Assembly: GCA_948567375.1 (NCBI GenBank)
Contig: OX419761.1
Coordinates: forward strand, 30,418,243 to 30,482,242
From: Lunularia cruciata
Taxonomy: Eukaryota > Streptophyta > Marchantiopsida > Lunulariales > Lunulariaceae
Direction of reading: 5' to 3'
DNA: 64,000 nucleotides
Shown in pieces: positions 3,890 to 64,000 of the stretch; positions within the stretch are counted from its first letter, which is position 1; the number at the start of each line of letters is the position of its first letter. The translations under genes and the position numbers were made by a program. The notes beneath the pieces are model-generated. The model searched no databases and was not told the origin of the DNA. It saw only the letters and a list, made by a program, of their open reading frames with translations.

Positions 3890-3904
3890 ACGACTATCTG
3901 CAGC

Positions 3905-7783: not shown

Positions 7784-9930
7784 CGGGTGATGAGCAGGGA
7801 GCCATGTTCTTGGGGAAGGGAGAAGTAGCGGAAGAAAACCAAGAAGTGAGAGATGTCTTCTCTTCAAAACGCACAAAGAATGGCTACAAAGTTGAGAGCT
7901 ATAAAGACCCTATGAGGAGAGGCATCATAAATGCAATGATGGCTATCTTGAAGCCGGAGCAAACAACTTATGTGATGAAATATCAAGCGGTGTTCTTCCA
8001 CAAGATGTTTGCAAGGGAGCAAATCAATTGGGCAAAGTGCTTTCATCAACATGCAAGAAAAATGGTGTGGAACTTGTGAGACAAGTCACCTCCATACTAC
8101 ATTGTGCCGTTTGCAGCCCATTTCTACTTGGGACTAAACTTGTTGAACACAGCGGAGAGACACAAGATAGTGCTGCACTTCCCCCCGATTTGAGAAGAGA
8201 TGTTGATACAAAGGAGCAGCAATACATCTTGTAGATAAGAAGTAGTAATGAGTATTATGCACAGACGGGGCAGAGTGTGCAATTGAAGGTGAGCACTCCA
8301 AAGTCAAAGAAGAAGAGTCGACAAGGAGAAGAAGAAGTAGCGGTGATGAGACCTCAGGAAGGTCAAGAAGGTAAACCCAAGGAAAGAATTGGTGGTAATT
8401 GCATTGTCAAGTGAAGAATCATAAGGGAGGTTGAGTGCAAGTTAGAAGATTCAGACAAGGAGGAAGAATCCAAATTCACATAGTAGAGTGGTAATATGTG
8501 CAAGAGAGTGCAGAGGGAGTGGAGATGCAATTGGTACTTGAGGAGGAAGAAAGAAAGATGGAAATGGAAGAATAAGGTAAACCAAGACCCAAAGACAAAG
8601 TTTTAGAGCAGGAGGAGAAGAGGGTGACCATTCAAAGAGAAGTCTATTCCAAAAGGAAGGTGAATTATGAAGCGGGACCAAGTAATGTAAGAGAAGTAGA
8701 GAGTGGAAGTTTGGGGAGCAAAGAATCCATCCCAATAAGGCGATTACGGCTGAGAAGGCGAGTGTCAAGTGAAGAAGAGGCAAAGAAGGAGAAAAGTCTG
8801 CAAGTCAAGGTAAACCCAAGTGAAGGAGTAGAGTATTTGCAAGAGGTGGTGTGCCTATTGATAGCAAAGTTGGAGCAAAAGAAGAAGGAGATGCAATTGA
8901 AGTGTCCGGAGGTGAAGACTGTGTTGCAAGTGTTAGCAAGATTAGAGGAAGAGAACTCAAAGTTGAAGAAGAATATAACCCAAGGTGAGGAGGAGATGGA
9001 AGTACTACGAGTAGATGCAATAGTACAGAACCAGGTAATTGAAACCTTAAAGAAGGAAGTGGGGAGTAGAGAGAGAATGATAGAGTAGAATTTCATAGCA
9101 AGGGAAAGATAGATAGTGGAGTATGAGATCTTGAAATAACAATTTGTTGATTCACAATTAGAAATTATTCATCTTATGGTAAGAGTAACAGAGAAGGAGC
9201 AAGAGCTTGATAGAGTGATGGAGAGTGTAGAAGAGCAGGAGCAGCTCTGGCAAAGAGAGTTGACAGTGAGATATAGAGAAGAAAAAGGATTGAGGGAGAT
9301 ACTTTGTAGTTTGGAGGAGAAGATTGTTCAGAAGGAGAAGGAGACGGAGATAGTGAAAGCCGAGTTTGAGGTAGAACTGGCAATGTATAGGGAGGATTGG
9401 CTTGCAGATCAAGAATGGGAGAGAAGAATGAGACTTGAGCCATTGAAGGAGATTGTAACAAAGACGAATGCGATGTTGAATACAAAAGCCAGCGTCAGGA
9501 TTGAAGAAACAAGATTGCACGAGTTGAAGTTGTTGGTGCAGAAGATGAGGAGGAGAAATACAAAGGATAAGGACTTGAATGCCTTGCTAATTAGTCTTAG
9601 AACTTGTGTAGATAGGAAGACATTAGAAGTGGAAGATAATATCACGATCAAATTAGATTTAGTTAAGTTGGAGATAGATAAACTTCAGAAGGATGTAAGA
9701 GCAAAGCCCAAAGTAGATGACATAGGAGTACAAATATCTTTGGAGCTACATTGGAGATATTAGAGAATGGGTCGGGAGATAGAGATTTAGACAAGTTATC
9801 TGTTATGGGAATTGTAGATCAGAAAGAAGAAGTAATAGAATTGGTAGTTGTGAAACCCAAGGATAGAGTAGTGTGTGAAGTTACATTGGGTTTAGAAGCC
9901 AAGGAAGAAGTAGACATCGGATTGGAGTAG
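7784..9930 (+). pseudogene. U1 copy of the U3-borne coiled-coil protein gene, truncated and broken
   Basis: The N-terminal part is missing. Readable pieces are: the middle of the N-terminal domain (7801-8080: N-G-Y-K-V-E-S-Y, Y-V-M-K-Y-Q-A-V-F-F-H-K-M-F); the charged linker (8280-8800, with K-K-K-S-R-Q-G-E); the coiled coil (8820-9090 and 9176-9760, with R-L-E-E-E-N-S-K-L-K-K and E-K-I-V-Q-K-E-K-E); and the family C-terminus V-D-I-G-L-E followed by TAG at 9928-9930. Several TGA, TAG and frameshift lesions interrupt it. The C-terminus matches U3, U4 and U5 and marks the true end of the frame. Confidence 0.75.
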
Positions 9931-10048
9931 TAACAATTTTGAGATTTGAAGAGGCAAATATGAAGAGGTGCATTGTCATTTAGGATCTGTAGGTTAAGAA
10001 AGTTGTTGTAGAACAATATAGTTGTTAGTAACTATCAAGTGCTTTGCC

Positions 10049-10057
10049 TATTTAAAG
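10049..10057 (+). promoter_or_regulatory. TATA-like box of LTR U1
   Basis: TATTTAAAG lies 675 bp before the LTR 3' end. The same position is kept in U3 (679), U4 (675) and U7 (668), so this is probably the LTR promoter, placing the upstream reading frame in U3. Confidence 0.55.
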
Positions 10058-11126
10058 GAAGCATTTGTAGTCATATGTTGTTCAATGCCATAATTTTTGA
10101 GAATAGATAAAGCAAAGTGCTATGAAGTAGTGCTATGAAGTAGTGCTTGTTGTTTAAGCTTAATTCTGAGCATCAATTTTGTGTCTATGTTTGTGAGTGT
10201 TGGGAGAATTTTAAAGCAAATCAGTGTGTTTGTTGGATGTTGGATTTTGCAACCTTGATCTTTACTTTGTGTGTTTGATCTTGAGTGAAGTGTAATCGGA
10301 GCAATGCCTTGACAGATTTGAGAGGAATTGTAATGTTAGTAGTATTTTGCATTTGTGAGTGCAATGCAAAGTTGATGTGAAGCAATTTTGATCAAGGAAG
10401 TTGTGCCTTTAGTGGAGAGGTGGAACACAATTTTGAGGCAAGGTCATTTTACAGTGAAGTGCCATTTTCAAGAGAGACTAAATCATCACAATTAAGATTC
10501 TTTGGAAAGATTTGATGGAGTTGTGATTAAGTGTGATACTACTGCGAGTTAGTGCTTGTTACTCTCTATTGGGTGTAGTTTCTACCTGAGAGATTAAAGA
10601 AGAACCCAAGAAGAACTGAACTTGTTACTTTGCTTTGTATTTAACCAATTTTGAATTGTATCTCTATGGGAACAAACTTTACTTACCTGATTACCACAAA
10701 AGTGATATTTGTCGGGTTGTCACAAGTACCTACATTTTTTTGACAAGTTTTGAAGAAGAAGTGTATTGAGGAAGCCAAATTATGAAGAAAAGAATGGACT
10801 TATGTGTCTTCAAAGTAAACCCATAGATTTTGATCTTGGGTCGAGAACCGGAAGTACTCGGATGGGGTTATAAAGAGACAAAACCAAAGAAAAGCATCTT
10901 TGGAACAAGAAGCACAGGCCAATATGAAGAAGATGTAATAACGTTTCTATGTGTTAGGCCAGCCAAGAAAGTACACTTAAAGAAATGGTAGAGGCAGGAG
11001 AAGCATACCTTGAAAGTGATAGGAAACAAACATGCAGAAGAAGTGGGAGTCAATTTTGAAATCAACTAAAGAATGACTACACTTTGAGATACTATAAAAT
11101 TATGATTGCACAAGGAGAAATCAAAC

Positions 11127-13699
11127 ATCTCAAGTAGATACCTTGTCCCTTTGAGTAGTCATCCTGCAGTAATGTGCATCAAGAAGCCAATTAAGAGTGA
11201 AATTTTCTGAAGTCCAAAAGAGGTTAGAGTTTTGCGTCCAAGAGAGGACATAATCTTCCAGCATCGAAGAACTAGTGAGCAGATCATGGCAAAGAAGAAT
11301 AAGAAAACACTTGCAATGAGGAGTTTTGCAATTTGGCGATTAGATGTTGTAGCTAGAATTGAAGTCCTAAACAGACTTTGGATCATGTTCTTGGCATGGA
11401 ACTAGAATGTTAGTTTTCTAGGTATTATGGCAGAGATAGCTGCAAGTAATTATGAGGAGGGCCCCTAAGTTATGAGGAAGAGAGGAAATCTGGCTTGATG
11501 GACTAAGTTGGATTGGAAGCTTGTACTGGGGAAGGAAGCAGAGATGCAATTGGGGTCACTTCTTATAAGTGTGACGCTGCAGAAGAAATTGCTGAAATTA
11601 AGAATTTGTTCTTTGCTCCACAAACCAACAATGGCTACAAAGTCAAGCCCTATCAAGACCCAATTAAGCAAATAATTTTAGGAGAAATTATGAGAATGTT
11701 CAAGCACAAGCAACAATGTAGCAGGCGGTCTTCTTCCACCAGATGTTTGCAGGAGAGAAGGTGAATTGGGCAAAGTGCTTCCATCAAAGAATAAGGTAGA
11801 TGATTGTCAATTGGAGGACCAATTTGCTACCACACTACTTTGCACCATTTGTAGCACATTTCTACATGGGATTAAATCTGCTAACAATGGAGGATAAGCA
11901 GCATATGGTTTTGCATTTCTATCCAGATCTTTGATGAGAAGTGGATGAAGAGGAGCAACGATATATTTTGCAACTACAATCCAATGATGATCATTTCATT
12001 AGAACACGATAGGGAGATGGTGGAAAGAAGAAGTCCAAAGACAAGGAAGCAAACTAAACCCAAAGAAGTAGCCTTACCCCAGCCACCACAAAAGACCCAA
12101 AGACTCAATCCATGAGGTAAGAAGGTAGTGAAAGATGAGACTTCAGAGACAAAGTATGAAGGAGAGACAAAGTCCAAGAGAAGAGACTCTAAAGAAGTTG
12201 AACTCATATTATAGAGCAAGGAGTCTAGGAGTGAGAGTGAAGGTGAAGATGAAGTCCAATAGTCAGTTGAAGTAGAAGACAATGAGGTGTTCTATCCATT
12301 GATTGACCACATGGAGGGAGGAGATGGCTCTTGCTAAGAGTTGCTCATGGAGGAAATGGATGAAGAACCAAAGAAAGAACATCAGAAGGGGGTAAGATCC
12401 AAGAGGTCATTGCCAGCTGAACCTGTAGGTCTAAGCTCAATGAATAAGGAAGAAGTAAGCTCAGACAAAAGGTCATTGAAGGTACAAAGATCAAGACTTT
12501 GAAAGAAGAATCTGGCGGAAGGGGCGTCAATGGAGGCAAAGTACAAAGACAAAGCATAAGACAAAGAAGACTTTGATAGGATGGAGTACTTTTTACAGAT
12601 TGTGAGTCCATTGTTGGCACTATTAAATAAGAAAAAGAAGGTGATTTAGAAAGATCATTTGGAGGTGAAGAATGAGTTGTAGGTGATGAAGTATCTGCTT
12701 GACAAAATAAGGGAATTGAAGGAGATTGTAACCCAAAGAGAAGAAGAAGCTGAGGAACTTCAAGTGGAGGTAGTCTTAACAAAGAAGACTATAGAGAAAT
12801 TGCAAGGTAATTTTCAATAGTGTGGGAGAGAGATCCACAGTCAAGCCAAAGAGTTGAAAGAGTAGAAAGTGTTGGTTGAGAAGATGAAAGGTGAAGTCAA
12901 CAAAGTTTGTATTGAAAGCATACATGTGAAGGCAATGGCAGCCGTGATAGAGCAGGAGTTAGAGAGCTTGAAGAATAGTGCAGCAAAGAAGGATCAAGCA
13001 TGGTAGAGGGAGTTAGCAATCCGACACCAAGAGGAGGACAGATTGAGAAATTTGGTAAGAAGTGTTGAGATGTAGAGTGCTCAATATGAGGAGGAAAAGA
13101 AGATGCTTACAGCCAAGAACAAAGATGAGTTAAGATGTATAGAGAAGAGTTGAAGGTAGAATGATCTTGAGGGTATGCATCAGAGTCAATATGAAAAGTT
13201 GTTGGGAGATTGAGAGAATGCCAAGCATTGAATCTGAAGGAAAGTTAAAGGAAGCAAGATTGCATGAATTGAAATTGCTAGTGCAAAAGACAAGGAAAAG
13301 GAGAGCAAAGATGTGGATATGAACACTCTTTTGATTTGTTTGAGTGAACAAGACGATAGGAAGATAATTGAAGTAGGAGACAATGAAAGTCTTAGATTAG
13401 ACTTAATAAATTTAGAGTTGGAGAGACTTTGGAGTAGTGTGAAGGAAGATAAGAAGTCTGAAGTGGCAGAAGTAGGAGTGCATGTGCACTCGGATCAATT
13501 ATCTAAGATATTAGAGAAGAGTGGGTTAGGAGATAAAGAGATAGAAATGTTATCCATTAGTGAAATTGTAGTTCAGGGTGAAGAAGAAGTAGAAATAGTG
13601 GAGGATGTAGTAGAATTGAGTAGATCCAAAGAAGGAGAAGTGATAGGAGCATCGTCGGGTTTAGAAGCTGAAGTTAAGGTTGACATCATATCCGATTAG
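11127..13699 (+). pseudogene. U2 copy of the U3-borne coiled-coil protein gene
   Basis: This aligns with the U3 gene. The start codon has become ATC (the family start is ATG-TCA-AG). The next residues are S-S-R-Y-x-V-P-L, then M-C-I-K-K-P. The N-terminal domain (up to about 11960) is followed by a basic/acidic linker, the coiled coil and the C-terminus V-D-I-I-S-D with TAG at 13697-13699. Many in-frame stops and frameshifts are present; the longest clean piece is 13313-13699 (128 codons). It has no TSD of its own and no intact domain, so it is a relic. Confidence 0.75.
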
Positions 13700-13802
13700 A
13701 AACAGATTTGAGATATGAGGAGGTGCATTGTCATTTCGGGTCAACAAGTTGGTCGAGTTGTTGTAGAATGGTATTTTTCTTAGTAATTGTCGATTGCTCT
13801 AC

Positions 13803-13811
13803 TATTTAAAG
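13803..13811 (+). promoter_or_regulatory. TATA-like box of LTR U2
   Basis: TATTTAAAG is at the position conserved in the family. The distance to the LTR end is longer here (about 760 bp) only because of the TG-repeat expansion downstream. Confidence 0.5.
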
Positions 13812-13920
13812 GTGGCATTCATAGTGTTATGTTGTTCAGTTTTCATATTCTTGAGAATAGATAAAGCAAAGTGTTGATCTCAGTGCTCGTCGCTTGAGTT
13901 GAATTTTGAGTATCAACTTT

Positions 13921-14033
<113 letters not shown>

Positions 14034-14599
14034 GGGAGAAATTCAAAGTGAAATTTTGAGTGTTAGATGTTGGATTCTACATCTCTGATTCCATTCTATG
14101 TGTTTGATCATGAGTGGATAGCAATCAAAGCAATGCCTTGATAGATATGAGAGGAATTGTGGTGTTGGTAGTATTCTACAGTTGTGAGTGCAGCGTTGAG
14201 TTTATGTGAAGCAATTTCAATCAAGGAAGTTGTGCCTTTAGTGGAGAGGTGGAACAAAATTCTAAGGCAAAATCATTTTGCAATGAAGTAGCCATTTTTG
14301 GGAGAGACTGAATCATCACAATTGAGTTTGTTTGGACAGAATTGAAAGATTTGTGATTATGGGTGACAAATTTTTGTCACAAGACTGCAATCTAGTGCTT
14401 GTTACTCTCTTCTAGGTGTGGTTTCTACCTAGAGATTAAAAAATAACTCAAGAAGAACTGATTTGGTTACTTTGCTTTGTATTTGGATATTTTTGAATTG
14501 TATCTTTGCAAGAACAAATTACTTACTTGATTACCGCAAAAGTGATATTTGCCGGGTTGTCATAGTGTTAAAGGACAACAAGACTTGATCTCCAAAATT

Positions 14600-15530: not shown

Positions 15531-16193
15531 TGATGTGACAACCCAACAAATATCACTTTTGCGGTAATCAAGTTAGTAAAGTTTATTCCCACTGAGATAT
15601 AATTCAGAATTGGTCAAATACATAGTTAAATTGTGACAAGTAGTTCTTCTTGGCTGCATCTTTAATCTCTTAGGTAGAAACTACACCTAGAAGAGAGTAA
15701 TAAGCACTGACTTGCAATCTCGTCATCACAATTTGTCACCCATAATCACAAATCATTCATTTCTATCCAAACAAACTCAATTGTGATGATTCAGTCCTTC
15801 CCAAAAATAGCTACTTCACTACAAAACAACTTTACCTCAAAATTGTGTTCCACCCTTCCACTAAAGGCACAATTTCCTTGATCAAAATTGCTTCACATCA
15901 ACACTACATTGCACTTATAAATGCGGAATACTAGCAACACTACAATTCTTCTCAAATCTATCAAGGCATTGCTCTGATTGCACTTCACTTAGGATCAAAC
16001 ACACAAACTAGAATCAAAGATGTAGAATCCAACATCTAACACTCAAAATTGCACTTCAAATTTCTCCCAACACTCACAAATACAAAATTGATACTCAGAA
16101 TTAAGCTCAAGCAACAAGCTCTGAAATCAGCACTTTTCTTTATCTATTCTCACAAATAATAAATACTGAACAACATATGACTATGAATGGTTG

Positions 16194-16202
16194 CTTTAAA
16201 TA
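16194..16202 (-). promoter_or_regulatory. TATA-like box of LTR U7
   Basis: TATTTAAAG on the minus strand, 668 bp from the LTR 3' end, is the same spacing as in U1, U3 and U4, although this copy lacks most of the coding part. Confidence 0.5.
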
Positions 16203-16689
16203 GGCAGAGCGCTTGATAGTTATCTAACTCCCTAAACTAAGTCCTAACAACTTTACCAACCTCCAGATCTGAAATGACAATGCACCTCTTCATATCTACC
16301 TCTTCCTATCTCAAAACTAGTCCTAATCCAATCCGATGTCTACTCCCTTTTGGCTTCCAAAGTCGATGAAAGTTCCTTCACTTCTCTATCTTTGGGTTTA
16401 TCTATTACCATTAAATCTTTTGTCAATTCTACTACTTCTTTGCTCTGATCTGCAATTAAACTCATAGGTAATCAATCTACTTCCTTATCTTGCGGCCCAC
16501 TCCTCTCTAAAGTCTCAAATAACTGATCCTAAGACGCTCACTATCCGATCTTGCACTTTGGGTTCATTCCTAACTATCTTTTATTTCTTCGTCTTAACTA
16601 CTTTAGATACTTCAAACATCTAACCCGAAGACTCCTACATCTGATGTCTAACTACCTTGGATTGGGTCACCTTTGTCTTGAGGCAAAGT

Positions 16690-31188: not shown

Positions 31189-31599
31189 TGTGGTCCCCAC
31201 ATTTTTTGTTTTTTTCTGTTTTGTTAGCATGTGGAGAAGAAGTAAGCAAGAAAGCCAAATTGCAAAAGAAAGAATGGACAGGGGTGTCTTCGGAGGAAAT
31301 CCAAAGAAGTTGACTTCGGGTTGGAGACCAGAAATACTTAGAAGGGGAGTACGAAGGACAAGTCTGGAGATCATTGTCTTTGGATTGGGACGCAAAGGCC
31401 AATGCAAAGACCATCTAACAACCTTTCTAAGTGGCAAGAAAGTACACTTCAAGAAATGGCAGAGGCAGAAGAAGCATGTCTTTGATAGTGACAAGACAGC
31501 AACACGTAGAAGAAGGGGAAGTTGATTTTGAAATCAACTGGAGAATGATTGCAATTTGAGGTAATATAAGATTGCAATTGCATAGGGGGAAAGTTAAAT

Positions 31600-34143
31600 A
31601 TGTCAAGTAGATTTCCTATTCCTCTAAGTAGTTGTCTTGCAGTAATGTGTGTCAAGAAGCCAATTGAGAGTGAGATATTCCAAAATCCAAAAGGGGTTAG
31701 AGTGTCTCATCCAAGAGAAGGAATAGTCTTCCAGTGCCAAAGAACAAGAGAGCAGATCATGGCAAAGAAGGTCAAGAACGCTCTTGCAGTATGAAGTTTT
31801 GCAATTCGTAGGTTGGATGTAGTAGCAAGGATCAAGGTCTTGAATAGACTTCTTATTACTTTCTTAGCATGGAACTGGAATTTTAGTTTCCCAAGAGTCA
31901 TGGCAGAGAACTGCTAGTAATTGCGTGGAAGGCCCTAAAGTCAAAAGGAAGAAAGGAAATCCGGCTCCATGGACTGAGTCGAATTGGAGGTTAGTGTTGG
32001 GGAAGGAAGCAGGAGAATCGACTGGGATCACCTTCTATCGGAAGTGTGATGCTGCAGAGGAGACGGAAAACATATGCAATTTGTTCTTTGCTCTGTACAC
32101 AACGAATGGTTACAAGGTAGAGTCTTATCGGGGCCCAATTAAACAAAGTATTGTGGGGTCGATAATGGCCATGTTCAAACCAGAACGCATGACGTACGTG
32201 AACATGCAGCAGGTAGTCTTTGTCCACAAGATGTTTGCAGGAGTGAAGGTGAATTGGGCAAAGTGTTTCTACCAACAAATGATGCAGATGGTGGTCAATT
32301 GCAGGACAAGTTTGCCTTCACATTATTTTGCACCTTTTGCAGCACATTTTTACTTTGGGTTGAATTTGCTGACAGCAGAGGAGAGGCGTCACATGGTGTT
32401 GCATTTCCATCCTGATTTGAGACGGGAAGCGGATGAAGAAGAGCAACAATACATGGCACACCTGCAAGCCAGTGATGATCACTTCTTGAAGATGGGACAA
32501 CGGAAGATGGAAGAAGTCACAAGCCCAAAGACGAAGAAGCACAATAAACCCAAAGAAGCAGAGTCACCTCCATCACAAAGGAAGACCCAAAGACTGGTTC
32601 CAAAGGGTAAGAAGATGGTGAAAGAAGAACCGTCAGTGACCAAGTCTGAAGGGGAGACAGAGTCTAGAGGAGAGGACTCAAAAGAAGCCAAACTCACGTT
32701 ACAAAGTAAGGAATCCAGAAGCAAGAGTGAGGGTGAAGACAAGGTTTAGCAATCGGCTGAAGAAGAAGAAGGGTATGAAGCTTGTCATGCAATGATTGAC
32801 AGTGTACCAGGAAAGACAAATTATTGCATAGCCTTGGTTGTGGAAGAGAAAGGGGCTAAAAAACAGAAGGAGTATCCTGCGGGGCCGAGTCCAGTAGGTA
32901 AGGAAGAAGGAAGCTTGGAAGCAGTATCATTGAAGATACAAAGATCGCTAATTCGGTAGAAGGAGCCAGTGGAAGAGGAGAAGTACAAAGATGGAGTCAA
33001 AGGTGAAGAGAACTTTGGAAGGATATAGTATCTATCAAAGGTTGTAACTCCATTGTTGGGGCTATTAAAAGAGCACCAGAAGGTAATTCCCCAAGATTGT
33101 ACGAAGATGACGAATGAGTTGTAGGTGGTGAAGTATCTGATGGCTGAAGTGAAGGGTTTGCAGGAGCGTGTAACCCAAAGAGACAAGGAAGTTGAAGAAC
33201 TTTGGGTGAATATAGTCTTGAAGAAGAAGACTTTTGAGAGGTTGCAAGATAGTTTTGAAGCAAGAAGGAGAGAAATGCAGCATCAACTCAACAAATTGAA
33301 GGAGCAGATGATGTTGTTGACCAAGATGAAAGAAGAAGTCAGTGAAGTGCACATCGAGAGTATTCATGTGAAGGCAATGGCCGCAGTATTGGAGTAGGAG
33401 TTAGAAAGTTTGAGGAAGAGTGCGGCTGGGAAGGATCAAGCATGGCAGAGAGAGTTGGAGTTAGAATTCAAGAAGAAGAAAGATTGCACGAGTTGGTACA
33501 AAGTGCTAAGTAACAAAGTTCTCAATGTGTGGAGGAGAAGAAGATGCTCGCTGCTGAGTACAAAGACAAATTAAAAATGTACCAAGAAGAGTTGAAGGTA
33601 GAGCGATCTTGAGGATATAAGTTGGAATCCGTAGGAGAAGTTGTCGAGAAGTTACAAGCAATGTTGAGCACAGAGACTGAAGGAAGATTGGAAGAAGCAC
33701 GCGTACATGAGTTAAAGTTGCTTGTGCATGAAACTCAAAAGAGGAAAGCCAAAGATGTGGATATGAATACTTTACTAATCCTATTGAGGGAGCAAGTAGA
33801 TCAGAAAATGTTAAAAGTAGGAGACAATGTCAATCTCAGATTAGATTTAGTGAATTCAAAGTTAGAAAGAATTAGGAGTAGTGTGACAGAGGTGAGAAAG
33901 CCCGATGTTGCAGAAGTAGGAATACATGTGTCTTCGGACTTGTCATTTGAGACATTAGAGAAGAGTGGGTTAGGAGATAAAGAGATAGAAAGATTACCCA
34001 TGATCTCAATTGCAGATCAGAGTGAAGAAGTGGTAGAAGAAGTGAAGGATTTGGTAGTTGTAGACATACTCAAAGAAGGAGAAGTGATAGGAAGATCATT
34101 GGGTTTGAAAGCCGATGACAAAGTAGACATTGGATTGGAGTAG
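31600..34143 (+). pseudogene. U3 copy of the LTR-borne coiled-coil protein gene
   Basis: It starts at the family ATG, 411 bp from the LTR start (M-S-S-R-F-P-I-P-L), and ends V-D-I-G-L-E at TAG 34141-34143. Four long open pieces remain: 31600-31794, 31925-32749, 33125-33397 and 33622-34143. The N-terminal domain (to about residue 270) has N-G-Y-K-V-E-S-Y, Q-V-V-F-V-H-K-M-F-A-G, W-A-K-C-F-Y-Q-Q and Y-F-A-P-F-A-A-H-F-Y-F-G-L-N-L-L. A linker rich in K, E and S with basic clusters (R-L-V-P-K-G-K-K) follows, then a long heptad-rich segment. There is no RT, protease or transposase motif. Similar patterns to plant transposon-associated domains can be imagined but not proven. Stops at about 31795 and 32749 show that this copy is dead. 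Confidence 0.75.
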
Positions 34144-34261
34144 TAATAGTTTTTGAGATAGGAAGAGGCAGATATGAAGAGTTGCATTGTCAGTTCGGAT
34201 TTGCAGGTTAGAAGAGTTGTTGTAGAACGATATAGTTGTTAGTAATTGTCGTTTGCTTCAC

Positions 34262-34269
34262 TATTTAAG
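34262..34269 (+). promoter_or_regulatory. TATA-like box of LTR U3
   Basis: TATTTAAG, 679 bp from the LTR 3' end and about 120 bp after the stop of the reading frame. The position is conserved across the family. Confidence 0.55.
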
Positions 34270-35749
34270 AGTGGCATTTGCAATGAAATGTTGTTCAATA
34301 TTCATATTTCTGAAGATAGATAAAGTAAAGTGTTGATTTTAGTGCTCATCCCTTGAGCTTGATTCCGAGTATCAATTCTGCATTTGTGTTTGTGAGTGTG
34401 TGGAGAATTTTGAAGTGCAAATCAGTGTGTTTGTTGGATGTTGGATTCCGCAGCCTTGATCTTCATTCTGTGTGTTTGATCTTGAGTGAAGTGCAATCAA
34501 AGAAATGCCTTGACAGATCTGAGAGGAATTGTAGTGTTGGTAGTATTTTGCATTTGTGAGTGTTGCGCTGAGTTGATGTGAAGCAATTTCAATCAAGGAA
34601 GTTGTGCCTTTAGTGGAGGGGTGGAACACAATTCTGAGGCAAAGTTGTTTTACAGTGAAGTGCCGTCTTTGGGAGAATCTGAATCATCAAAATCAAGATT
34701 TGTTTGGATAGAATTTGCTATGTTGTGATTATGGGTATTTGTATTTGTGACAAGTTGTCAAGATTATGAGCTTGTTACTCTCTTTTGCGTGTAGTTGCTA
34801 CTTGAGAGATTAAAGAGGAAATCAAGAAGAACTACATGTTACTATTTGACTTTGTATTTAGACATTTCTGATTAGTATCTCTGCGGGAACAAACTTTACT
34901 TACCCAATTACCGCAAAAGTGATATTTGCTGGGTTGTCACATATATAAACTAGGGGTGAGGAGTTACTCATCATCTTTTTATTTGCAGCTATCTCTCTCT
35001 CATTGAGTTTTCCAGTGAGCAATGGTTTAAGTCTTACAATGTTAGCAATGGAGGTGTATGATGGAGTTGGAGTTCTTTGCCTTCTTAGTCCATTGTGCAC
35101 TACCATAATAGCCATCAAAGGTTCATATTGAGTGAGACAGGCCAGCTCACATTTTTGGTTCCATGGCTAAGACTTCTTTAGAAGGCAAGAGAATGTTCCT
35201 TGTATAATTTTATATTAGACAGAAGTGTTAGGTTTTGAATGATATGCCTTAGGTTTCGGGTATTTTAGTGAGGATTGCTCTCTCATAGGTTGTGGGGAGT
35301 ATGGACTGTAAAACTATTGTAGGACTGGACTAGTAAAATGTGGTACCCACATTTTTGTTTTTTTTCTCAATCTTGAAGAAGAAGTGTATAGAGAAGTCAA
35401 ATTGCGCATGTATGGCCAAAGAAGGCAAAGAAAAGTGTCCTTGGGATATAACTTGAGGTAACGTGACTTCGGGTCATAAGGCAAGGTACTCGGAATTGCC
35501 TTGTCAGCATACAATCCAAAGTAAGGAGTTGTCTTATTGGGGGTGCTCAACCCACGGCAAGGACAATGTAACAACTTTCCTTTGGGGCAAGACATTCAAG
35601 AAGGTACCGTTCAAAAATGATGGTCATACGTGTGAAGGACACTTGACAGTGACAAGAGCATGCAAGAGGTGTGATTTCTTGGTAGAAACTCAAATTGAAG
35701 AAAGACGGAGAAGGCGGGACTCTATAAAAGTCAGGCTAAAGACAAATCA

Positions 35750-38334
35750 ATGACAAGCAATTTTCCATCGCCGCTAAGAAGTCATCCTGCAGGAGATTGT
35801 GGGAAGCAAAGTATAGTCGAAGACGCGCTGATGTGTTGAGAGGAAGTCGTGAGAGTTAATCCGGGAATCAGTAGGAAGAATAGTCCCCAGCCCAGAGTGG
35901 AAGAGAGAAAGATGGGAGGTGGGAAGAAGAACTCCAAATTTGCAGTGAGAAATCATGCGATTTGGAGGTTAGATGTGATCACAAGAATTGAGGTCTTGAG
36001 CAAGCTTTGGATCACATTCTTGGCATGGAACTGGAATGTTAGCTTTCCAAGTTTCATGATTGAGATCATCGAGAGTAAGTGTCTTGATAGCCCTGAGGAA
36101 GAAGTGAAGAGAGGAAATCTTGCTCGATGGATAGAGTTGGATTGGAGGTTAGTACTTGGGAGAGAAGCATGCGCAAAGCATGGAGCCACATTCTTGGAGA
36201 AAGGAGAAGTAGCCGAAGAAACCCAAGAAGTGAGAGATGCCTTCTCTTCAAAGCGCACAAAGAATGGCTACAAAATGGAGAGCTATAGGGATCCTATAAA
36301 GAGATGGATTGTGAGTGCTCTAATAGAAATCTCAAAGCCGGAGAAAACGACTTATGTGATGAAGCACCAAGCGGTGTTCTTCCATAAGATGTTTGCAGGA
36401 GAGCCAATTAATTGGGCAAAGTGTCGTCATGGGAGGACGAGATAGATGGTGTGGAATTTGTGGGACAAGTTGCCTCCACATTACATTGTGCCGTTTGCAG
36501 CCCATTTCTATCTGGGGCTGAACTTGCTCAATGTGGCGGAGCAAAATAAGATGGTGTCCCATTTCTATCCCAATTTAAGCAGCGATGTCTATGCGGAGGA
36601 GCAGCAATACATTCTTTAGATCAGGAGTAGTGATGAGTACTAAGCACAGACGGGGCAGAGTGTGCAGTTGGAAGTGAGCACTCCAAAGTCAAAGAAGAGG
36701 AGTCAACAAGGAGAAGAAGAAGTAGAGAAAGTGAGACCTCGGAAGGCTAGAAGGGTAATCCCAAGGAAAGAGCTAGTGGTAATCGCGTTGTTGGAAGAAG
36801 AGTCGGAAGGAGAAGCCGAGTGCAAGTGCAAAGATTTGGAGAGGGAGGAAGAACCAGAGTTCACACTGCAAAGTGGAGACACGAGTAGTGACAACAACGA
36901 TGCAGTGGAGGTGAAATTGATACCCAAAGAGGAGGAAGCCAAGATGGATATAGAGGAGAAAGATAACTTGAAACAAGAAGACGAAGTTCCAAAACAAGAG
37001 GAGAAAAGAGTTACAATTCAAAGGGGAGTTTGTTCCAGGCAAAGTGTGGAGCGGGGCCAAGTAAGGTAAGAGAAGAGGAGGATGGAAATTTGGGGAGTGA
37101 AGAATCCATTCCTATAAGGCAACTATGGCTTAGAAGGCAAGTGTCAAGTGAGAAAGAGGTGAAGAAAGAGACAAGTCCGCAAGTCAAAATAAATACAAGT
37201 GAAGGAGTAGAGTATCTACGAGAGGTTGTGTGCCCATTGTTAGTGAAGTTAGAGCACAAGAAGAAGTAGATGCAGTCAAAGTGTCCAAAGGTGAAGACTG
37301 TATTACAAGTATTAGCTCAATTAGAAGAAGAGAACTTGGAGTTAAAGAAGAGTATAATCCGAGGTGAGGAGGAAAAGGAAGTACTATGAGAAGATGCAAT
37401 AGTACAGAAATCAAGTGATCAAGAACTTGAAGAGAGAAGCAAGGAATAGAGAGGAGCTCATAGAGTAGAGTGACATAGTGAGGGAAAGGCAAGTAGTTGA
37501 GTATGAAATCTTGAAGCAGCAATTTGCTGATTTGAGATTAGAAATTATCCATGCTATGGCAAGAGTAGTAGAGAAGGAGCAAGAGCTCAATAGAGTGATG
37601 GAGAGTGTAGAAGAGAAAAAAGTAGCTCTGGCAAAGAGAATTGACAACAGATATAGAGAGGAAGAAAGGTTGAGAGAGTTACTTTGCAATCAAGAGGAGA
37701 AGATTGTGCAAAAGGAGAAGGAGAAGGAAACTATGAAAGCCGAGTTCAAAGCAAAATTGGCAATGTATAGAGAAGATTGGCTTGCAAATCAAGAATGTGA
37801 AAGAAGAATGAGATTGGAGCCATTGAAGGAGATTGTGATCAAGATGAATGCAATGCTGAGTATAGAAGCCAATGTGCGGATTGAAGAAACAAGACTGAAC
37901 AAGTTGAAGTTGTTGGTGCAGGAGATGAGGAGGAGAAATGAGAAGGATAAAGATTTGAATGAGTTGTTGATCAGTCTCAGAACTTGTGTAGATAGAAAGG
38001 TATTGGAAGTAGAAGACAATATCACAATTAGATTAGACTTAGTGAAATTAGAGATAGATAAACTTCAAAAGGATGTAAGAGCAAAACCCAAAGTAGATGA
38101 CAGAGGAATGCAGACAAATTTGGAGTTACCATTGAAGATGTTACAGAAGAGTGGGTCGGGAGATAAGGAGTTAGAAGGATTACCCACTAGTGGAATTGCA
38201 GATCAAGAAAGAGAGATGTTAGAATTAGTAGAGAATTAGGAGTTGTGAAACCCAAGGATAGAGTAGTAATAAGTGGAGTTACTTCAAGATTGGGATTGAA
38301 AGCCAAGGAAGATGTAGACATCAGATTGGAGTAG
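35750..38334 (+). pseudogene. U4 copy of the LTR-borne coiled-coil protein gene
   Basis: ATG (M-T-S-N-F-P-S-P-L) lies 411 bp from the LTR start and the stop TAG at 38332-38334 follows D-I-R-L-E. Main open pieces: 35849-36445 (N-terminal domain: F-L-A-W-N-W-N-V-S-F-P, N-G-Y-K-M-E-S-Y, H-Q-A-V-F-F-H-K-M-F-A-G), 36662-37069 (linker with K-K-R-S-Q-Q-G-E and acidic runs) and 37478-38239 (253 codons, predicted coiled coil; E-K-I-V-Q-K-E-K-E-K-E, L-A-M-Y-R-E-D-W-L-A). Single-base lesions connect them. High Lys/Glu content and periodic Leu suggest an elongated dimeric protein. No enzyme motif is seen, so a structural or nucleic-acid-binding role is only a guess. Confidence 0.78.
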
Positions 38335-38450
38335 TAATAGATTTGAGATTTGAAGAGGCAGATATGAAGAGATGCATTGTCATTTTGGATTTGCATGTTA
38401 GAAGAGTTGTTGTAGAATAGTATAGTTGTTAGAATTGTCATTTGCTTCAC

Positions 38451-38458
38451 TATTTAAG
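38451..38458 (+). promoter_or_regulatory. TATA-like box of LTR U4
   Basis: TATTTAAG, 675 bp before the LTR end, is the same place as in U1, U3 and U7. Confidence 0.55.
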
Positions 38459-39279
38459 AGTGGCATTCATAGTTTTATGTTGTTCAATGCTCATAATTTC
38501 TAAGAATAGATAAAGCAAAGTGTTGTGGAGTAGTGCTCTTCGTTTAAGCTTGATTCCAAGTATCAACTTTGTGATTGTATTTGTGAGTGTGTGGTGAAAT
38601 TCAAAGTGCAAGTTAGTGTGCTTGTTGGATGTTGGATTCCGTAGCCTTGATCTTCATTTTGTGTGTTTGATCCTGAGTGAAGTGCAATCGGAGCAATGCC
38701 TTGACAGATCTGAGAGGAATTGTAGTGTAGGTAGTATTTTGCATTTGTGAGTGCAGTGCAAAGTTGATGTGAAGCAATTTTGATCAAGGAAGTTGTGCCT
38801 TCAGTGGAGGGGTAGAACACAATTCTGAGGTGAAGTTTTTTTGTAGTGCAGTGCCGTTTTTGGGAGAGCTTGAATCATCACAATCAAGATTGTTTGGAAA
38901 GATTTGATGGAGTTGCGATTAAGAAGTGTTAATTTGTGATAATACTACGAGTCAATGCTTGTTCCTCTCTTCTGGGTGTGGTTTCTACTTGAGAGATTAA
39001 AGATGGAACCAAGAGGAACTAAATTATTACTTTGCTTTTTATTTGACCAATTCTGAATTGTATCTCTGTGAGAACAAACTTTACTTACCCAATTACCGCA
39101 AAAGTGATATTTGCCTAGTTGTCACATAAAAGGACAGGATCATGTGGCAGTAAAGGCCTTCTTGATGCTTACTGTGGATGTAGCCTCACACAGAGGTGAA
39201 CCACGTGTTCTTGTCTAAAGTGTGAATTTGCTTGGAATCAGCATGGTTTATGTGGCACTAATCAATTTTATCAATCAAA

Positions 39280-39292
39280 TGGTATTAGAGCA
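39280..39292 (+). promoter_or_regulatory. Copia primer-binding site
   Basis: TGGTATTAGAGCA, complementary to the 3' end of plant initiator tRNA-Met with one mismatch, begins two bases after the 5' LTR. This is the usual primer for plant copia elements. Confidence 0.85.
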
Positions 39293-39507
39293 ATGTTGAG
39301 GTTGATGATGGAGGCCATGAGAAAATTGAGACAAGTGTTGGCTCAACTAAGTTGAGGCATGAAGCAATTATGGACTAAAGGCTGAACCTCAATTTGGGGA
39401 CCTTGGTCATTTGTCTATTCCCCTGCACTTTGTACTTTTTTTAGAGGAAGTGAGCTATGAGCCTCTAGGATGATGAAGATATTGTCGGGGCATAGCATGA
39501 GGTCAGC

Positions 39508-42500
39508 TGTGGTGCCCACATTTTTTGTATTTCTCAAAATAAAGGAGAAGAAGTGTACAGAGAAGTCAAATTGCACCTGTATGGCCAAAGAAGGCAAAGG
39601 AAAGAGTCTTCGAGATGAAACCCGAGGTAAAGTGACTTTGGGTCATAAGGCAAAGTACTCGGAAATGCCTTGTCAGCATACAACCTAAAGTAAATTACCT
39701 TTGTATCGGGGGGAGCTCAACCCGAGGCGAAGACAATCTAACAACCTTTTGTCGGGGTGAGAAATTGAAGAAGGGGCCGTTTAAAAACTGGCGGCCCATA
39801 CGCGCAAAGGTTTATTGACAGTGACATGTGCATGCCGGAGGTGTGATTTCTTGGTAGAAACTCAAAGCAACAAAAGACAAAGAAGCGCAACTCTATAAAA
39901 ATCGAAACTGCAACAACAAAATGTCAAGTAATTTTCCTTTGCCGTTGAGAAGTCGTCTTGCAAGTGATCGAGGAAAGGGAAATAGAGTTGGGATCGTGTT
40001 AGTGCGCAAGGGCAAAGTTGTGAGAGGGAAATCGAGAGGAAGTGAGAAAGTAGAAGAGATGGGAGGAGGGAAGAAGAACTCTGAATTCGCAGTGAGAAAT
40101 CATGCGATTCGGAGGTTAGATGTGATAGCAAGGATCGAAGTCTTGAGCCGACTTTGGATCACCTTTCTGGCATGGAACTGGAACGTAAGTTTTCCAAGAC
40201 TCATGACAGAAATCATCAAGAGTAAGTGTCTCGATGGACCCAAGGAAGAAGGGAAGAGAGGAAATCCGGCTCATTGGACAGAGTCGGATTGGAGACTTTT
40301 ACTCGAGAAGGAAGCAGGCTCGGAGCAAGGAGCCACGTTCTTGGGAAAGGGAGAGATAGCCCAGGAAACTCAGGAGGTGAGAGATGCCTTCTTGTCAAAG
40401 CAGACGAAGAATGGGTACAAGGTTGAGAGCTACAAAGACCTTGTGAAGAGAGGGATCGTGAGTGCTCTAATGGCTATCCTAAAGCCAAAGAGAACCACTT
40501 ATGTGATGAAACACCAAGCAGTGTTCTTCCATAAGTTGTTTGCAGGAGAACCAATCAATTGGGCAAGGTGTTCACGGGAGAACGAGGCAGATGGTGTGGA
40601 ATTTGCAGGATAAGTTGCCTCTACACTACATCGTGCCGTTTGCAACACACTTCTACCTTGGGCTCAACTTGCTAAATTCGGCGGAGCGGACTAGGATGAT
40701 GTCGCATTTCCATCCGGATGTGCGAAAGGAGGTCAATATTGAGGAACAATAGTACATTCTCCAAATCAGGAGCACCGACGACTACTACGCAAAGACAAGG
40801 AAGAACGTGGAGGTCGCAATGAGTACTCCAACAAAGAAGAGGAGTCGGCAAGGAGAAGCCAAAGATAGCAAGAAACCTCGGAAGATGCAGAGAAGTAACC
40901 CAAGGCGAAGTATGATGGTGATTGAGTCAGAGGATGAGGACTCAAAAGGAGATGCCGAGCTCAAAACGGAAGACTCGGAACACAAGGGGGAGCATGAGCT
41001 AATGTTGTAGAGTGGAGATACGAGCAGCGATAGTGATGAAGTGGGAGAGATGACATCGATGCCAACAGCTGACAAATACGAGGAGGAAGAAGTGCACACT
41101 GAGATGGAGGCCGAAGACAACATACAGTTGGAGGACAAAGTAACTGTGCCCAAGGAAAGGAAGATCACAATACAGCAAGGATTTTGCTCAAGACGTAAGG
41201 CGAAGTGTGAAGCGGGGCCAAGTAAAGTGAAGGAAGAGGTTGGAGAAAGCTCGGTCAGTGAGGCGTCAATTCCGATACAAAGACTGCAAAGGAGAAGGCA
41301 AGTATCAGGTAAAGAAGAGGTAAGGAAGGAGATTTCTATGCAGGAAGAAGTAGTCGCGAGAAATGGAGTGGAGTACCTACAGGAAATTGTGTGTCCATTG
41401 TTGGTGAAGTTGGAGCACAAGAAGAGGGAGATGCAGTCGACGTGTCCAGAGATGAAGACTATGTTGCAGGTGTTAGCGCGACTAGACAAAGAGAACTCGG
41501 AGTTGAAGAAGAGTGTAACCCGAGGTGAGGAGGAAAGGGATGTACTGCAAGCGGAGGCAGTAGAGAGAAGTCAGGTAATTGAAGACTTGAAGAGAGAAGT
41601 GAGCGATCGAGAGGAGCTTGTGAAGAAGAGTGACATAGCAAGGGAGAGACAAGTAGCTAAATATGAGATCTTGAAGCAGCAATTTGCTGATTCAAGAGTA
41701 GAAGTTATCCATGCTATGGCGAGAGGAGCAGCAAAGGATCAAGAGCTCGATAGAGTGATGGAAAGTATGGAGGAGAAGAAACAACTCTGGCAACGAGAGT
41801 TGGCGGTGCGATACAGAGCAGAAGACCGATTACGAGAATTACTTCGTAATCAGGAGGAGAAGGTAGTACAGAAGGAGAAGGAGAAGGAGACGATGAAAGC
41901 CAAATTTGAGGAGGAGTTGGCAATGTACAGAGAGGACTGGCTTGCAGATCGGGACCAAGAAAGGAAGACAAGATTGGAGCCGATAAAGGAGATTGTCCTC
42001 CAGATGAATGCAATGTTGAGTATAGAGGCCAGCGTTCGAATTGAAGAGACAAGACTACACGAGTTGAAATTATTGGTGCAAGAGACAAGGCAAAGATAGG
42101 CAAAAGACACCAAGATGAACGCCTTGTTGATTAAAATGAGAACTTGTGTAGATAGGAAGATATTAGAGGTAGAAGATAACATTGCGATTAGACAAGACTT
42201 AGTGAAAATAGAGATAGAAAAGCTTCCGAAAGATGTTGAAGCAAAACCCGAAGTAGATAACATAGGAGTGCAAATGTCTTTGGAGTTACCAATGGAGACA
42301 TTAGAGAATAGTAGGTCGAGAGATAAGAAGTTAGATAGATTACCCACTAGTGGAATTTCATATTAGGAAAGAGATTTGCTAGAATTGGTAGAAGAAGTAG
42401 GAGATATGAAACCCAAGGAAAAAGTGATAGGAAGGAAGATTACTTTGGGTTTGGGTTTGAAAGCCAAGGAAGAAGTAGACATCGGATCGGAGTAGTAACA

Positions 42501-42816
42501 GATTTGAGATTTGAAGAGGTAGATATGAAGAGGTGCATTGTCATTTTGGATTTGAAGGTTAGAAGAGTTGTTGTAGAACAGTATAGTTGTTAGAACTGTC
42601 GATTTGTTCACTACTTAAGAGTGGCATTCGCAGTATCATGTTATTCAGTGCTCATAATTTTTGAGAATAGATAAAGCAAAGTGCGGTGAAGCAGTGCTCG
42701 TCGCTTGAGCTTGATTCTGAGTATCAACTTTGTGTCTATGTTTGTGAGTGTGTGGAGATATTTGAAGTGCAAGTCAGTGTGCTTGTTGGATGTTGGATTC
42801 CACAACCGTGATCTTC
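39508..42816 (+). mobile_element. Long-LTR copy U5, 3'-truncated, in the copia leader
   Basis: It starts TGTGGTGCCCACATTTTTT after the copia leader. Homology with U4 continues to ...GATCTTC at 42816, about 330 bp short of the family 3' end, where copia leader sequence (CACAGGTTTGGGGCGG) resumes. The left flank is TCAGC (39503-39507); the matching right duplication has been lost with the deleted end. It carries the best-preserved coiled-coil open frame of the family. Confidence 0.85.
39921..42495 (+). pseudogene. U5 copy of the LTR-borne coiled-coil protein gene (best preserved)
   Basis: ATG at 39921 is 413 bp from the LTR start (M-S-S-N-F-P-L-P-L-R). The family C-terminus V-D-I-G-S-E ends at TAG 42493-42495. 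Open pieces: 39921-40613 (230 codons) holds the N-terminal domain with R-R-L-D-V-I-A-R-I-E-V-L, F-L-A-W-N-W-N-V-S-F-P, N-G-Y-K-V-E-S-Y-K-D and N-W-A-R-C; 40540-40752 continues it after a frameshift; 40807-41010 is the basic/acidic linker (K-K-R-S-R-Q-G-E, E-S-E-D-E-D); 41041-42099 (352 codons) is a continuous Lys/Glu/Leu-rich coiled coil; 42115-42366 is the tail. Only about four lesions (one frameshift, stops at about 40750, 41010 and 42098, and one near the end) separate it from a full frame. Confidence 0.8.
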
Positions 42817-47358: not shown

Positions 47359-47618
47359 TGTTATGTTTTGACTGATATGCCTTAGGGTTTTGGGTATTTT
47401 GGTGAGGGTTGCTCTCTCACACGTCATGGGGAGTATGGACTATAAAATTGTAGTAAGACTAGACTAGTAAAAGGACAAGACCTTGAGTCAGTAAAGGCCC
47501 TCTTGGTGCTTACCATGGGCGTAGCCTCACATAGAGGTGAACCACATATTCTTGTCCAAAGTGTGGATTTGCTTGGAATCAGCATGGTTTATGTGGCACT
47601 AATCAATTTTATTGATCA
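47359..47618 (+). mobile_element. Copia 3' LTR (260 bp)
   Basis: It aligns end to end with the two halves of the 5' LTR (35226-35338, 39132-39277). It keeps the uninterrupted GTAAAAGGACA site where U4 inserted in the other LTR. The right flank is AGAAG. Confidence 0.92.
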
Positions 47619-52699: not shown

Positions 52700-53035
52700 A
52701 GTGACAACTTGGCAAATATCACTTTGGTGGTAATCAGGTAAGTAAAGTTCATTCACGCAAAGATATAATTCAGAATTGGTCAATGCAAAGCAAAGTAACA
52801 ACTTCAATTCTTCTTGTGTTCTTCTTTAATCCCTCATGTAGAAACTACACCCCAAAGAGAGTAACAAGCACTGACCCACAATCTTGTCACAATAATTTGT
52901 AATACTTAATCACAACTCCATCAAATCTTTCCAAACAATCTTGATTGTGATGATTTAGGCTCTCCCAAAAAGGGCACTTCACTATATAACAAATTTGCCT
53001 CAGAATTGTGTTCCACCCCTCCACTAAAGATACAA
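52700..53035 (-). mobile_element. Long-LTR copy U6, 3' end part (left side of G4)
   Basis: On the plus strand it begins AGTGACAACTTGGCAAAT, the reverse of the family 3' end with the outer T changed, and runs to TCCACTAAAGATACAA at 53035. There the G4 element begins. The continuation of the same LTR is at 62996, where CTTCCTCAATCAAAATTGC resumes. Confidence 0.85.
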
Positions 53036-53722: not shown

Positions 53723-53732
53723 ATTGCCTCCC
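53723..53732 (-). promoter_or_regulatory. G4 polypurine tract
   Basis: GGGAGGCAAT on the minus strand abuts TGTGGCAC, the start of LTR segment A. It is short and contains one pyrimidine, so its assignment rests on position. Confidence 0.5.
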
Positions 53733-53891
53733 TAGCTGGCAGTTAGGTCCCTCTAACTCCAGATAGCCATCTACTCTAAGTATATGGTATACCCTCAAAT
53801 GGGCAAAGATCAGGAGGTCGGGTGCTATGGAGCACCATCGTTAGTTGCCTATCTGCAATCTATACCATATAAAGAATGAACTAGCTATAGG

Positions 53892-54191: not shown

Positions 54192-54236
54192 GATAGTGCG
54201 GCCTGTAGAAACATCAAGTGTCGTTGGTGCTGTCTG

Positions 54237-55428: not shown

Positions 55429-55608
55429 AGCCTCTGCAAATATACATAGAAAGGCTTATGCATGCCAACCTGGCACCATCTCCTCATCTGTCTCACCATG
55501 CTAACATGCTCCGGTCTGATCCTGCTGGCTGGGACATGGGTTTCTAATCAACCCATTTGCATCACGATTCACCACTCCAGGTCTATGGACAATTATGAAA
55601 TCATACTC

Positions 55609-59350: not shown

Positions 59351-59389
59351 AATCAGCTAAGCCGCCTCCAACATCATGCTAGACTCAGT

Positions 59390-62995: not shown

Positions 62996-63331
62996 ACATC
63001 TTCCTCAATCAAAATTGCTTCACATCAACTTTGAGCTGCACTCACAAATGCAAAATACTATCAACACTACAATTCTTCTCAGATTTGGCAAGGCATTGCT
63101 CCCATTGCTCTTCACTCAAGATCAAACACATAGAATAAAGATCAAGGCTACGTATCCAACATCCAACATGCACATTGACTTGCACTTAGAAATTCTCCAC
63201 ACAGTCACAAACATAGACACAGAATTGATACTTGGAATCAAGCTTAAACAATGAGCACTACTTCACAACACTTCACTTTATCTATTCTCAAAAATTAAGA
63301 GCATTGAACAACATATGACTACGAATGACAC

Positions 63332-63340
63332 CTTTAAATA
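63332..63340 (-). promoter_or_regulatory. TATA-like box of LTR U6
   Basis: TATTTAAAG on the minus strand at the family's conserved position, between the coding region and R-U5. Confidence 0.5.
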
Positions 63341-63429
63341 GGCAAAGCACTTAATAGTAACAACTCTTCCTACCTGTAGATCCAAAATGACAATGCATCT
63401 CTTCATATCTCAAAATTTTTACTACTCAG

Positions 63430-64000
63430 ATCCAATGTCTATCTCTTCCTCGGCTTCCAATCCCGAAGTAACTTCACATACTACTCTATCCTTGGAATTC
63501 CCAACTACTAACTCTTCTACCAATTCTAACACCTCTTCACTCTAAATTGCAATTAAAGACATGGGTAATCTATCTTCCTCTCTATCTCCCAACCCATACT
63601 TCTCTAAAGACTCAAATAACTAACCCAAAGACACCTGCACTCCTACTTCTCTTACTTTGGGTCTAACTACTATCAATTCCTTTGCTAATTCTATTATAAC
63701 CTCATCAAGGATTGTAATTGAAAGCATGGGTACAATATCTACACCTTCAATTTGTAACCCACTTTCCCTTAATCACTCGTGTAACTAACCCAAAGACACT
63801 TATTGTCTGATCCTACACTTTGAGTTCATTCACTACTACTATTTCTCTTTTAATTCTATCATATCTTCAATCAGAATTGAAATTGAAGTCATGAGTATCC
63901 TAAATATCTTCTTTCCTTATCCTAGCTTCCTCTAATGCCTCTGGCAAGACTCCCAAAGTCACCTTCAATGCACTATGAGGTCAGACAACCTCAGATTTGG
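63430..64000 (-). pseudogene. U6 copy of the coiled-coil protein gene, C-terminal part with triplicated tail
   Basis: On the minus strand the C-terminus reads E-I-D-I-G-S-E with tandem stops, as in U5. Upstream, a segment of about 55 codons occurs three times (anchors at about 63546, 63711 and 63876, spacing 165 bp). Each copy has a hydrophobic P-M-x-S-I stretch followed by E-E-V-x-E-L-V-E-E-L. In U1, U3, U4 and U5 this segment occurs once. 165 is a multiple of three, so the expansion kept the frame. Stops are present in the repeats. The coding frame continues beyond the window edge. Confidence 0.7.
63546..63960. repeat. Three tandem copies of a 165-bp coding unit in U6
   Basis: The plus-strand phrases ATTGCAATTAAAGACATGGG, ATTGTAATTGAAAGCATGGG and ATTGAAATTGAAGTCATGAG begin at about 63546, 63711 and 63876. 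Each is followed by related TCTTC/CTTCC-rich and CCCAAAG-containing stretches. The third copy is the most divergent. Confidence 0.75.

Follow-up and report, generated by a model that had tools for sequence, protein, structure and literature searches.

A gene kept by selection inside the giant LTRs of a Ty3/gypsy element in the liverwort Lunularia cruciata

Introduction

Protein genes placed in the U3 region of a long terminal repeat (LTR) are described from retroviruses, the closest case being sag of mouse mammary tumour virus (MMTV), with nef and bet, which reach into U3, as less close ones. In LTR elements in general, U3 is inherited through the 3' LTR in each round of reverse transcription. 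For a plant element the LTR is an unusual place to keep a gene. Here we describe such a gene in LTRs of 3.7-3.8 kb that belong to an abundant Ty3/gypsy element, roughly 13.7 kb long, in the liverwort Lunularia cruciata (genome of 565.8 Mb in 74 contigs). The starting point is a window of 64,000 nucleotides (C11:30418243-30482242), in which a similarity comparison finds seven copies or part copies of the LTR family; five of them are called units U1 to U5, labels that are distinct from the U3 and U5 regions of an LTR. An initial annotation of the window had pointed out a long reading frame in these units and likened its position to that of sag.

Additional open reading frames (ORFs) have been described in plant elements such as Grande, RIRE2, Retand, PvRetro13, Athila and Bagy2; in the parts of the sources available to us they lie in the internal region, either between pol and the 3' LTR or upstream of gag, and several are antisense (PMC7264820, PMC11963269). 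The grass elements Retrosat2, RIRE3, RIRE8 and FRetro3 are described, in the available part of another source, as having LTRs that reach or exceed about 3 kb, together with an ORF0 not found beyond the grasses (PMC3485330). Among the matches listed from the open literature, mostly titles and the beginnings of abstracts, no plant LTR family with a gene inside the LTR was found, and the visible parts of PMC11302176 and PMC10508981 hold no such case.

Complete elements around the LTRs

Units U3 and U4 start with TGTGGT and end with GTTGTCACA, termini of the TG...CA type, and both are flanked by perfect 5-bp target site duplications (TSDs), TATAT for U3 and TAAAA for U4. The joined flanks of U4 align to the partner copia LTR at window positions 47359-47619 (87% over 261 bp), which shows the empty site. 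The initial annotation had taken the two for whole units on these grounds, and its reading of ends, duplications and empty site stands. Since U5 is truncated at its 3' side, its target duplication is unreadable. Patterns for the primer binding site (PBS) and the polypurine tract (PPT) scanned across the window gave no match, so that the copies in it seem to be solo LTRs and fragments only.

The rest of the genome supplies what the window lacks. For a query of 1,040 bases from U4, the scoring covered 40 of 7,401 first-look candidates; these 40 match at 87-90% identity, the query itself excepted, and 20 copies were fetched with their flanks. TSDs were read in 18 of them, L011 and L021 being omitted for an unclear 3' end. 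Six copies have perfect 5-bp duplications and two match at 4 of 5 bases. Another four (L009, L019, L025 and L027) are 5' LTRs with a PBS directly after them, reading TGATTTTTGGC(G/A)CC(A/G)CTGCC..., and the next 3 kb are common to them at about 81-89%. L028, with none of 5 TSD bases matching, proved to be a 3' LTR behind a PPT, and the remaining five match at just 2-3 of 5 bases. The LTR/PBS junction occurs at 1,678 places in the genome (at most 2 mismatches) and the PPT/LTR junction at 1,636 (at most 3 mismatches), while the reversed patterns occur at none. Among the first 100 exact places listed for each junction there are six same-strand PBS/PPT pairs about 6.1 kb apart, a spacing that gives an element of about 3.8 + 6.1 + 3.8 kb.

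Downstream of the PBS, in the one element read, a CCHC gag, reverse transcriptase (RT), RNase H and integrase pieces follow in Ty3/gypsy order; the integrase core (rve) scores slightly under the curated cut-off, and the gag capsid models are weak and below theirs. In the protein collection the RT of this element has relatives in Marchantia polymorpha (76%), Riccia fluitans (73%) and Calypogeia fissa (61%). Its PBS looks like that of Athila/Tat elements. Most Tat elements have an additional RNase H.

Four complete elements have matching outer TSDs (Table 1), and in three of them the frame is present in both LTRs, which are 94.9% alike in E1, 92.4% alike in E3 and 89-92% alike, over the parts compared, in C7:30321824-30346043. 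The last of these runs from a 5' LTR split by an insertion through PBS, internal region and PPT to a 3' LTR with an insertion of ~700 bp; the insertions interrupting its two LTRs are later events. E2, a pair picked in the same way as E1 and E3, retains its 3' LTR and has lost the head of its 5' LTR. These are the paired LTRs around PBS, gag-pol and PPT that the initial annotation had called for, and in the copies sampled they dispose, together with the six perfect duplications, of its worry that copies might lack TSDs genome-wide. Matches to the gene also occur in pairs ~9.8 kb apart on one strand, at C1:28300279/28310136 and C2:13682707/13692523; these pairs have the look of additional complete elements whose two LTRs each hold the gene.

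A long frame with a conserved start and stop

The frame is found in each of units U1 to U5 and is broken in all five, with in-frame stops at 8 of 832 aligned codons in U4, 10 of 810 in U3, 4 of 828 in U5, 23 of 805 in U2 and 9 of 680 in U1. Matches to a 516-residue piece of the protein are free of stops at 7 of 83 places, the query included, these being the best 83 of 23,487 candidates. The stop codon stands in the same place in all nine alignment rows (38332 in U4, 42493 in U5, 34141 in U3), in agreement with the common end noted initially.

The start has had to be moved. The initial annotation began the frame 411-413 bp from the LTR start and gave its protein ~850 residues. An ATG at 411-414 is indeed present in U3, U4 and U5, but U2 reads ATC and the five LTRs of E1-E3 have none, and this first ATG was dropped as the gene start. 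All nine rows have a second ATG, at 552-574, as do 17 of the 19 fetched copies in the larger U4 group (L015 and L026 read T). Because the second ATG is conserved and the first is not, the gene in U4 is about 807 codons long. The long frame itself is real, and the earlier argument from shared start, end and length to a once-functional protein survives in its end, joined now by the selection tests below, with start and length corrected.

Selection on the frame

Selection was measured on two alignments. The first holds 19 of the 20 fetched copies (all except L028, which has an insertion in its LTR) together with U1-U5; the second takes 14 of these 24 rows and adds five new LTRs, with the 5' LTR of E2 omitted. 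Counts for the ratio of nonsynonymous to synonymous change (dN/dS) exclude columns without an agreed frame, gapped codons and stop codons. Comparisons between elements give a dN/dS of 0.19-0.35 in the true frame, as against 0.7-1.5 once the frame is shifted by 1-2 bases; single pairs in the true frame give 0.22 (E1/E3), 0.23 (E1/U3), 0.32 (E1/U5) and 0.27 (U2/U3), and E1/U1 is saturated. The ratio near 1 that the initial annotation had named as fatal to its proposal is thus not what the elements show. Differences at the three codon positions are likewise uneven between elements: 126/98/227 for E1/E3 (p 5e-14), 189/158/314 for E1/U3 (p 4e-14) and 334/274/438 for E1/U5 (p 3e-9). In the comparison with U5, none of the 631 majority codons of the U4 group is a stop when read in the true frame, while the two shifted frames have stops at 72 of 637 and 38 of 615. 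The third-position excess between subfamilies lies inside the gene; LTR positions 1-411 and 3001-3788, each considered as a whole, do not show it.

At insertion an element has two identical LTRs, and their later differences can be set against those between elements. Within LTR pairs the codon positions are flat, 49/35/44 in E1 (p 0.31) and 58/52/59 in E3 (p 0.78). Flat positions within pairs and uneven ones between elements, the strongest of the tests applied to the frame, point to neutral decay after insertion, while the transposing lineages kept the protein. The frame occurs in every divergent subfamily sampled, with DNA identity between subfamilies of 56-81%. It is therefore no host gene that just a few copies picked up, the third possibility that the initial annotation had raised against itself. 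Together, these results establish the frame as a real gene, under purifying selection before insertion and in neutral decay after it. How can a gene shared by so many copies be selected at all? That it is suggests one of two things: activity at any moment may be limited to a small number of master copies, or the protein may act preferentially on its own coding RNA.

Placement of the gene in the LTR and a proposed mechanism

Within the U4 LTR a first TATA-like box lies at about 385, the conserved ATG at about 550-575, the stop codon at about 2994 and a second TATA-like box near 3113; both boxes, the second ATG and the stop recur in most or all rows. The first box stands 27-35 bp before the first ATG and precedes the conserved one by 189-194 bp in U2, U3 and U4 and by 165 bp in U5, which for a putative promoter is an ordinary distance. 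The second box (TATTTAAG in most rows) follows the stop by about 120 bp and lies 676 bp before the LTR end (in U4 at 38451), where the initial annotation had put it to within a base pair (about 675). The part of the LTR that contains it, 3001-3788, is the best conserved between the U4 group and U3/U2, at 78-89%, against 43-71% for 401-3000 and 56-59% upstream. The second box and this conserved stretch can be read as the promoter and leader of the genomic RNA, from which we infer that the gene lies in U3 rather than in R/U5.

The following scheme is the one that seems most likely. Genomic RNA would start at the second TATA-like box, and the gene would be transcribed from its own box, with its transcript ending where the same LTR provides a poly(A) site. 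In reverse transcription, the U3 at the 3' end of the genomic RNA would serve as the source for both LTRs. A new insertion would thus hold the gene twice, and a solo LTR that recombination leaves behind would keep one copy. The product would be a soluble accessory protein that most likely either assists particle assembly by partnering Gag or RNA, or counters silencing. Taken as a whole, a gene in U3 with its own promoter and a soluble accessory product that serves the copying of the element is what we regard as probable, its promoters, expression and function being inferred from the sequence.

A bolder form of this proposal, possible though on balance doubtful, makes each LTR a self-contained cassette of promoter, gene and terminator. 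Solo LTRs, normally deemed dead scars, would then be free-standing genes whose factor acts in trans on behalf of the family, for example against silencing. Recombination would turn spent elements into helpers of living ones, a new type of division of labour in a retrotransposon family.

The protein product

The pieces of the protein comprise an N-terminal domain, a charged linker and a long C-terminal part rich in glutamate and lysine. Modelling weakly suggests a helical N-terminal domain, and the C-terminal part is perhaps a coiled coil. The N-terminal domain, searched as one sequence and then as a six-row alignment, matches nothing in the protein collection at E 0.001 or at E 1, and none of the pieces reaches threshold in Pfam, NCBIfam or the Protein Data Bank (PDB), the best chance-level values being 0.076 in Pfam and 0.92 in PDB.

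Weighing the readings

Several observations speak against a U3 gene with its own promoter and a soluble accessory product. The third-position excess fails in some 150-bp windows of the U5 comparison, around 1651-2100 and near 2850, perhaps because indels put the fixed U4 frame out of register there. Within the 20-copy U4 group dN/dS is 0.40, with 0.57-0.68 in the wrong frames, and the LTR pairs of E1 and E3 give 0.51 and 0.56, with 0.45-0.83; since these neutral pairs also read below 1, the contrast with shifted frames, and not the bare ratio, carries the argument for selection. The first TATA-like box is altered in E1_5, L019, L026 and L027. It could also be where the genomic RNA begins, and the gene would then belong to R/U5, transcription and the boundaries of R being putative. 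The structure models are poor (mean predicted local distance difference test, pLDDT, 48.5 and 46.2), and of three C-terminal pieces just one shows a clear heptad-like signal; with poor models and no homologue, any function is argued from composition. Lastly, in one complete element (C7:1677316-1686248, formed by L025 and L032) most of the gene is missing from either LTR, so that the gene is dispensable in an inserted copy. Its LTRs, 1,416 and 1,644 bp long, share a ~2.4-kb deletion joined at a short stretch of similarity, which may have arisen once around its reverse transcription, as by a template jump. A 141-bp query across the deletion junction is fully covered at only two of the 40 places scored from 3,843 candidates, both of them the LTRs of this element; in that sample no spread of a gene-less form on its own is seen.

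Could the gene instead belong to R/U5? Genomic RNA would then start from the box near 385, the frame would come first, ahead of gag, and the box near 3113 would be irrelevant or start a shorter RNA. The first box is recognisable in most rows and in all subfamilies shown, and its distance to the conserved ATG suits a promoter. Such an arrangement would however need minus-strand strong-stop DNA of ~3.4 kb and a leader of the same length, to our knowledge far beyond what is usual, and it would leave the second box and the sequence after it as the best conserved part of the LTR; we think it rather unlikely. That the frame is a by-product of a purine-rich LTR and never coded might be suggested by its breakage in all five units, by the tendency of a purine-rich strand to lengthen chance open frames and by the presence of reverse-strand frames of at least 120 amino acids, up to 261 in U5. 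It is refuted by a low dN/dS in a single frame, by majority codons free of stops in that frame and by the contrast between flat LTR pairs and third-position excess between elements, and we leave it next to no probability.

Two further readings concern where the gene came from. Plant LTR elements do capture host genes, as the available part of one source describes (PMC7264820), and the frame could be a host gene or another transposon taken up by a few copies. Against this, it occupies the same place and ends at the same stop codon across subfamilies down to 56% DNA identity and with dS above 1.5, and the pieces searched find no homologue at threshold in a protein collection that does include the liverwort relatives of the element's RT. 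Recent capture of a host gene is unlikely on this sequence evidence; an ancient one may have taken place, the genome scan for related genes having scored the best 83 of 23,487 candidates. Capture as a whole has in our view a low probability. An envelope-like protein relocated into the LTR would have a nearby source, as some plant elements carry sense-strand env-like genes between pol and the 3' LTR, next to U3, according to the part of the source available (PMC7264820). In the five pieces examined, though, there is no transmembrane-like stretch (the highest 19-residue Kyte-Doolittle mean is 1.32) and the protein is highly charged, which makes an envelope origin very improbable.

LTR copies and other elements in the window

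Features of the window and the complete elements are collected in Table 1. The end of U1 directly adjoins the start of U2 (10715-10740), whose first bases are missing; as U1 and U2 are just 63% alike, this is not the two-LTR junction of a single element. The 3' part of U2, at about 13900-14030, holds an expanded (GT)n-like microsatellite that is translated as VCVC...

A later Ty3/gypsy element on the minus strand (53142-62996) sits inside one copy of the LTR family; its own LTRs (53142-53592 and 62546-62996) are 91.6% alike. It encodes a PHD finger within 53895-54236 (Pfam E 1.8e-10), downstream of the zinc-binding piece of the integrase, perhaps in the place that a chromodomain occupies in other elements. 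A different retroelement lies on the minus strand at 483-3904, with a gag-like frame and an RT (Pfam RVT_1, E 2.5e-10), and beside it runs a long pyrimidine-rich stretch (GC skew -0.52 at 6001-8000).

Table 1. LTR copies and gene features in the window, by window position, and complete elements elsewhere in the genome
Feature	Position	Strand	Basis or remark
U1, LTR copy without 5' part	7793..10724	+	similarity
U1 gene stop; second TATA-like box	9928; 10049	+	alignment
U2, LTR copy closest to U3, both ends damaged	10725..14564	+	similarity, ends
U2 gene, broken, ATG to stop	11286 to 13697	+	alignment
Another LTR copy, 3' part	15534..16535	-	similarity
U3, solo LTR, divergent subfamily	31189..34941	+	TSD TATAT, ends, similarity
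U3 TATA-like box upstream of gene	31565..31571	+	sequence comparison
U3 gene, broken frame, conserved ATG to stop TAG	31759..34143	+	alignment
U3 second TATA-like box, TATTTAAGAG, candidate genomic-RNA promoter	34262..34271	+	putative function
U4, solo LTR within a copia LTR	35339..39126	+	TSD TAAAA, empty site
U4 TATA-like box upstream of gene, in CTCTATAAAA	35723..35729	+	sequence comparison
U4 first ATG, start in the initial annotation, not conserved in E1-E3	35750..35752	+	alignment
U4 gene, broken, conserved ATG to stop TAG	35912..38334	+	alignment
U4 second TATA-like box	38451..38460	+	sequence comparison
U5, LTR copy, third subfamily, 3' end lost	39508..42816	+	similarity, proper 5' start
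U5 gene, broken frame	40059..42495	+	alignment
Split LTR copy, downstream fragment	52701..53035	-	similarity; partner of 63662-62996
Split LTR copy, upstream fragment	62996..63662	-	similarity; interrupted by later LTR element
Complete element	C7:30321824-30346043		TSD CTAAT; frame in both LTRs
Complete element E1	C2:54166598-54180139		TSD TAAGA; frame in both LTRs
Complete element E3	C2:23103987-23117499		TSD CTCAT; frame in both LTRs
Complete element (L025 + L032)	C7:1677316-1686248		TSD AATGG; most of gene lost from both LTRs

Comparison with known systems

The grass elements of the Retrosat2 group resemble the liverwort family in combining long LTRs with an extra protein; their ORF0 lies upstream of gag-pol (ORF1) and, in the available part of the source, is not described as in the LTR (PMC3485330). 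The additional ORFs of other plant elements, so far as the accessible parts of the sources go, are likewise extra genes kept in most copies of a family, some of them near the 3' end, but they are found in the internal region whereas the liverwort gene lies within the LTR. Where LTRs are annotated as non-coding, genes of this sort would go unnoticed.

The nearest parallel is with MMTV sag. Like sag, the LTR gene would be a protein gene in U3, if the placement argued here is right, present in both LTRs and usable from a 3' LTR or a solo LTR. Unlike sag, it belongs to a plant host, has about 800 codons, lies wholly inside the LTR and has its own TATA-like box. A Sag model is included in Pfam, and no Pfam family reaches its cut-off in the pieces scanned; judged from these, the two genes are alike in where they lie and not in sequence. 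LTRs usually count as control regions, and here a gene in a plant LTR has been kept by selection over deep divergence. It offers a reason for the giant size of some LTRs, it raises the possibility that solo LTRs are genes rather than scars, and in position it provides a plant counterpart to the retroviral genes of U3.

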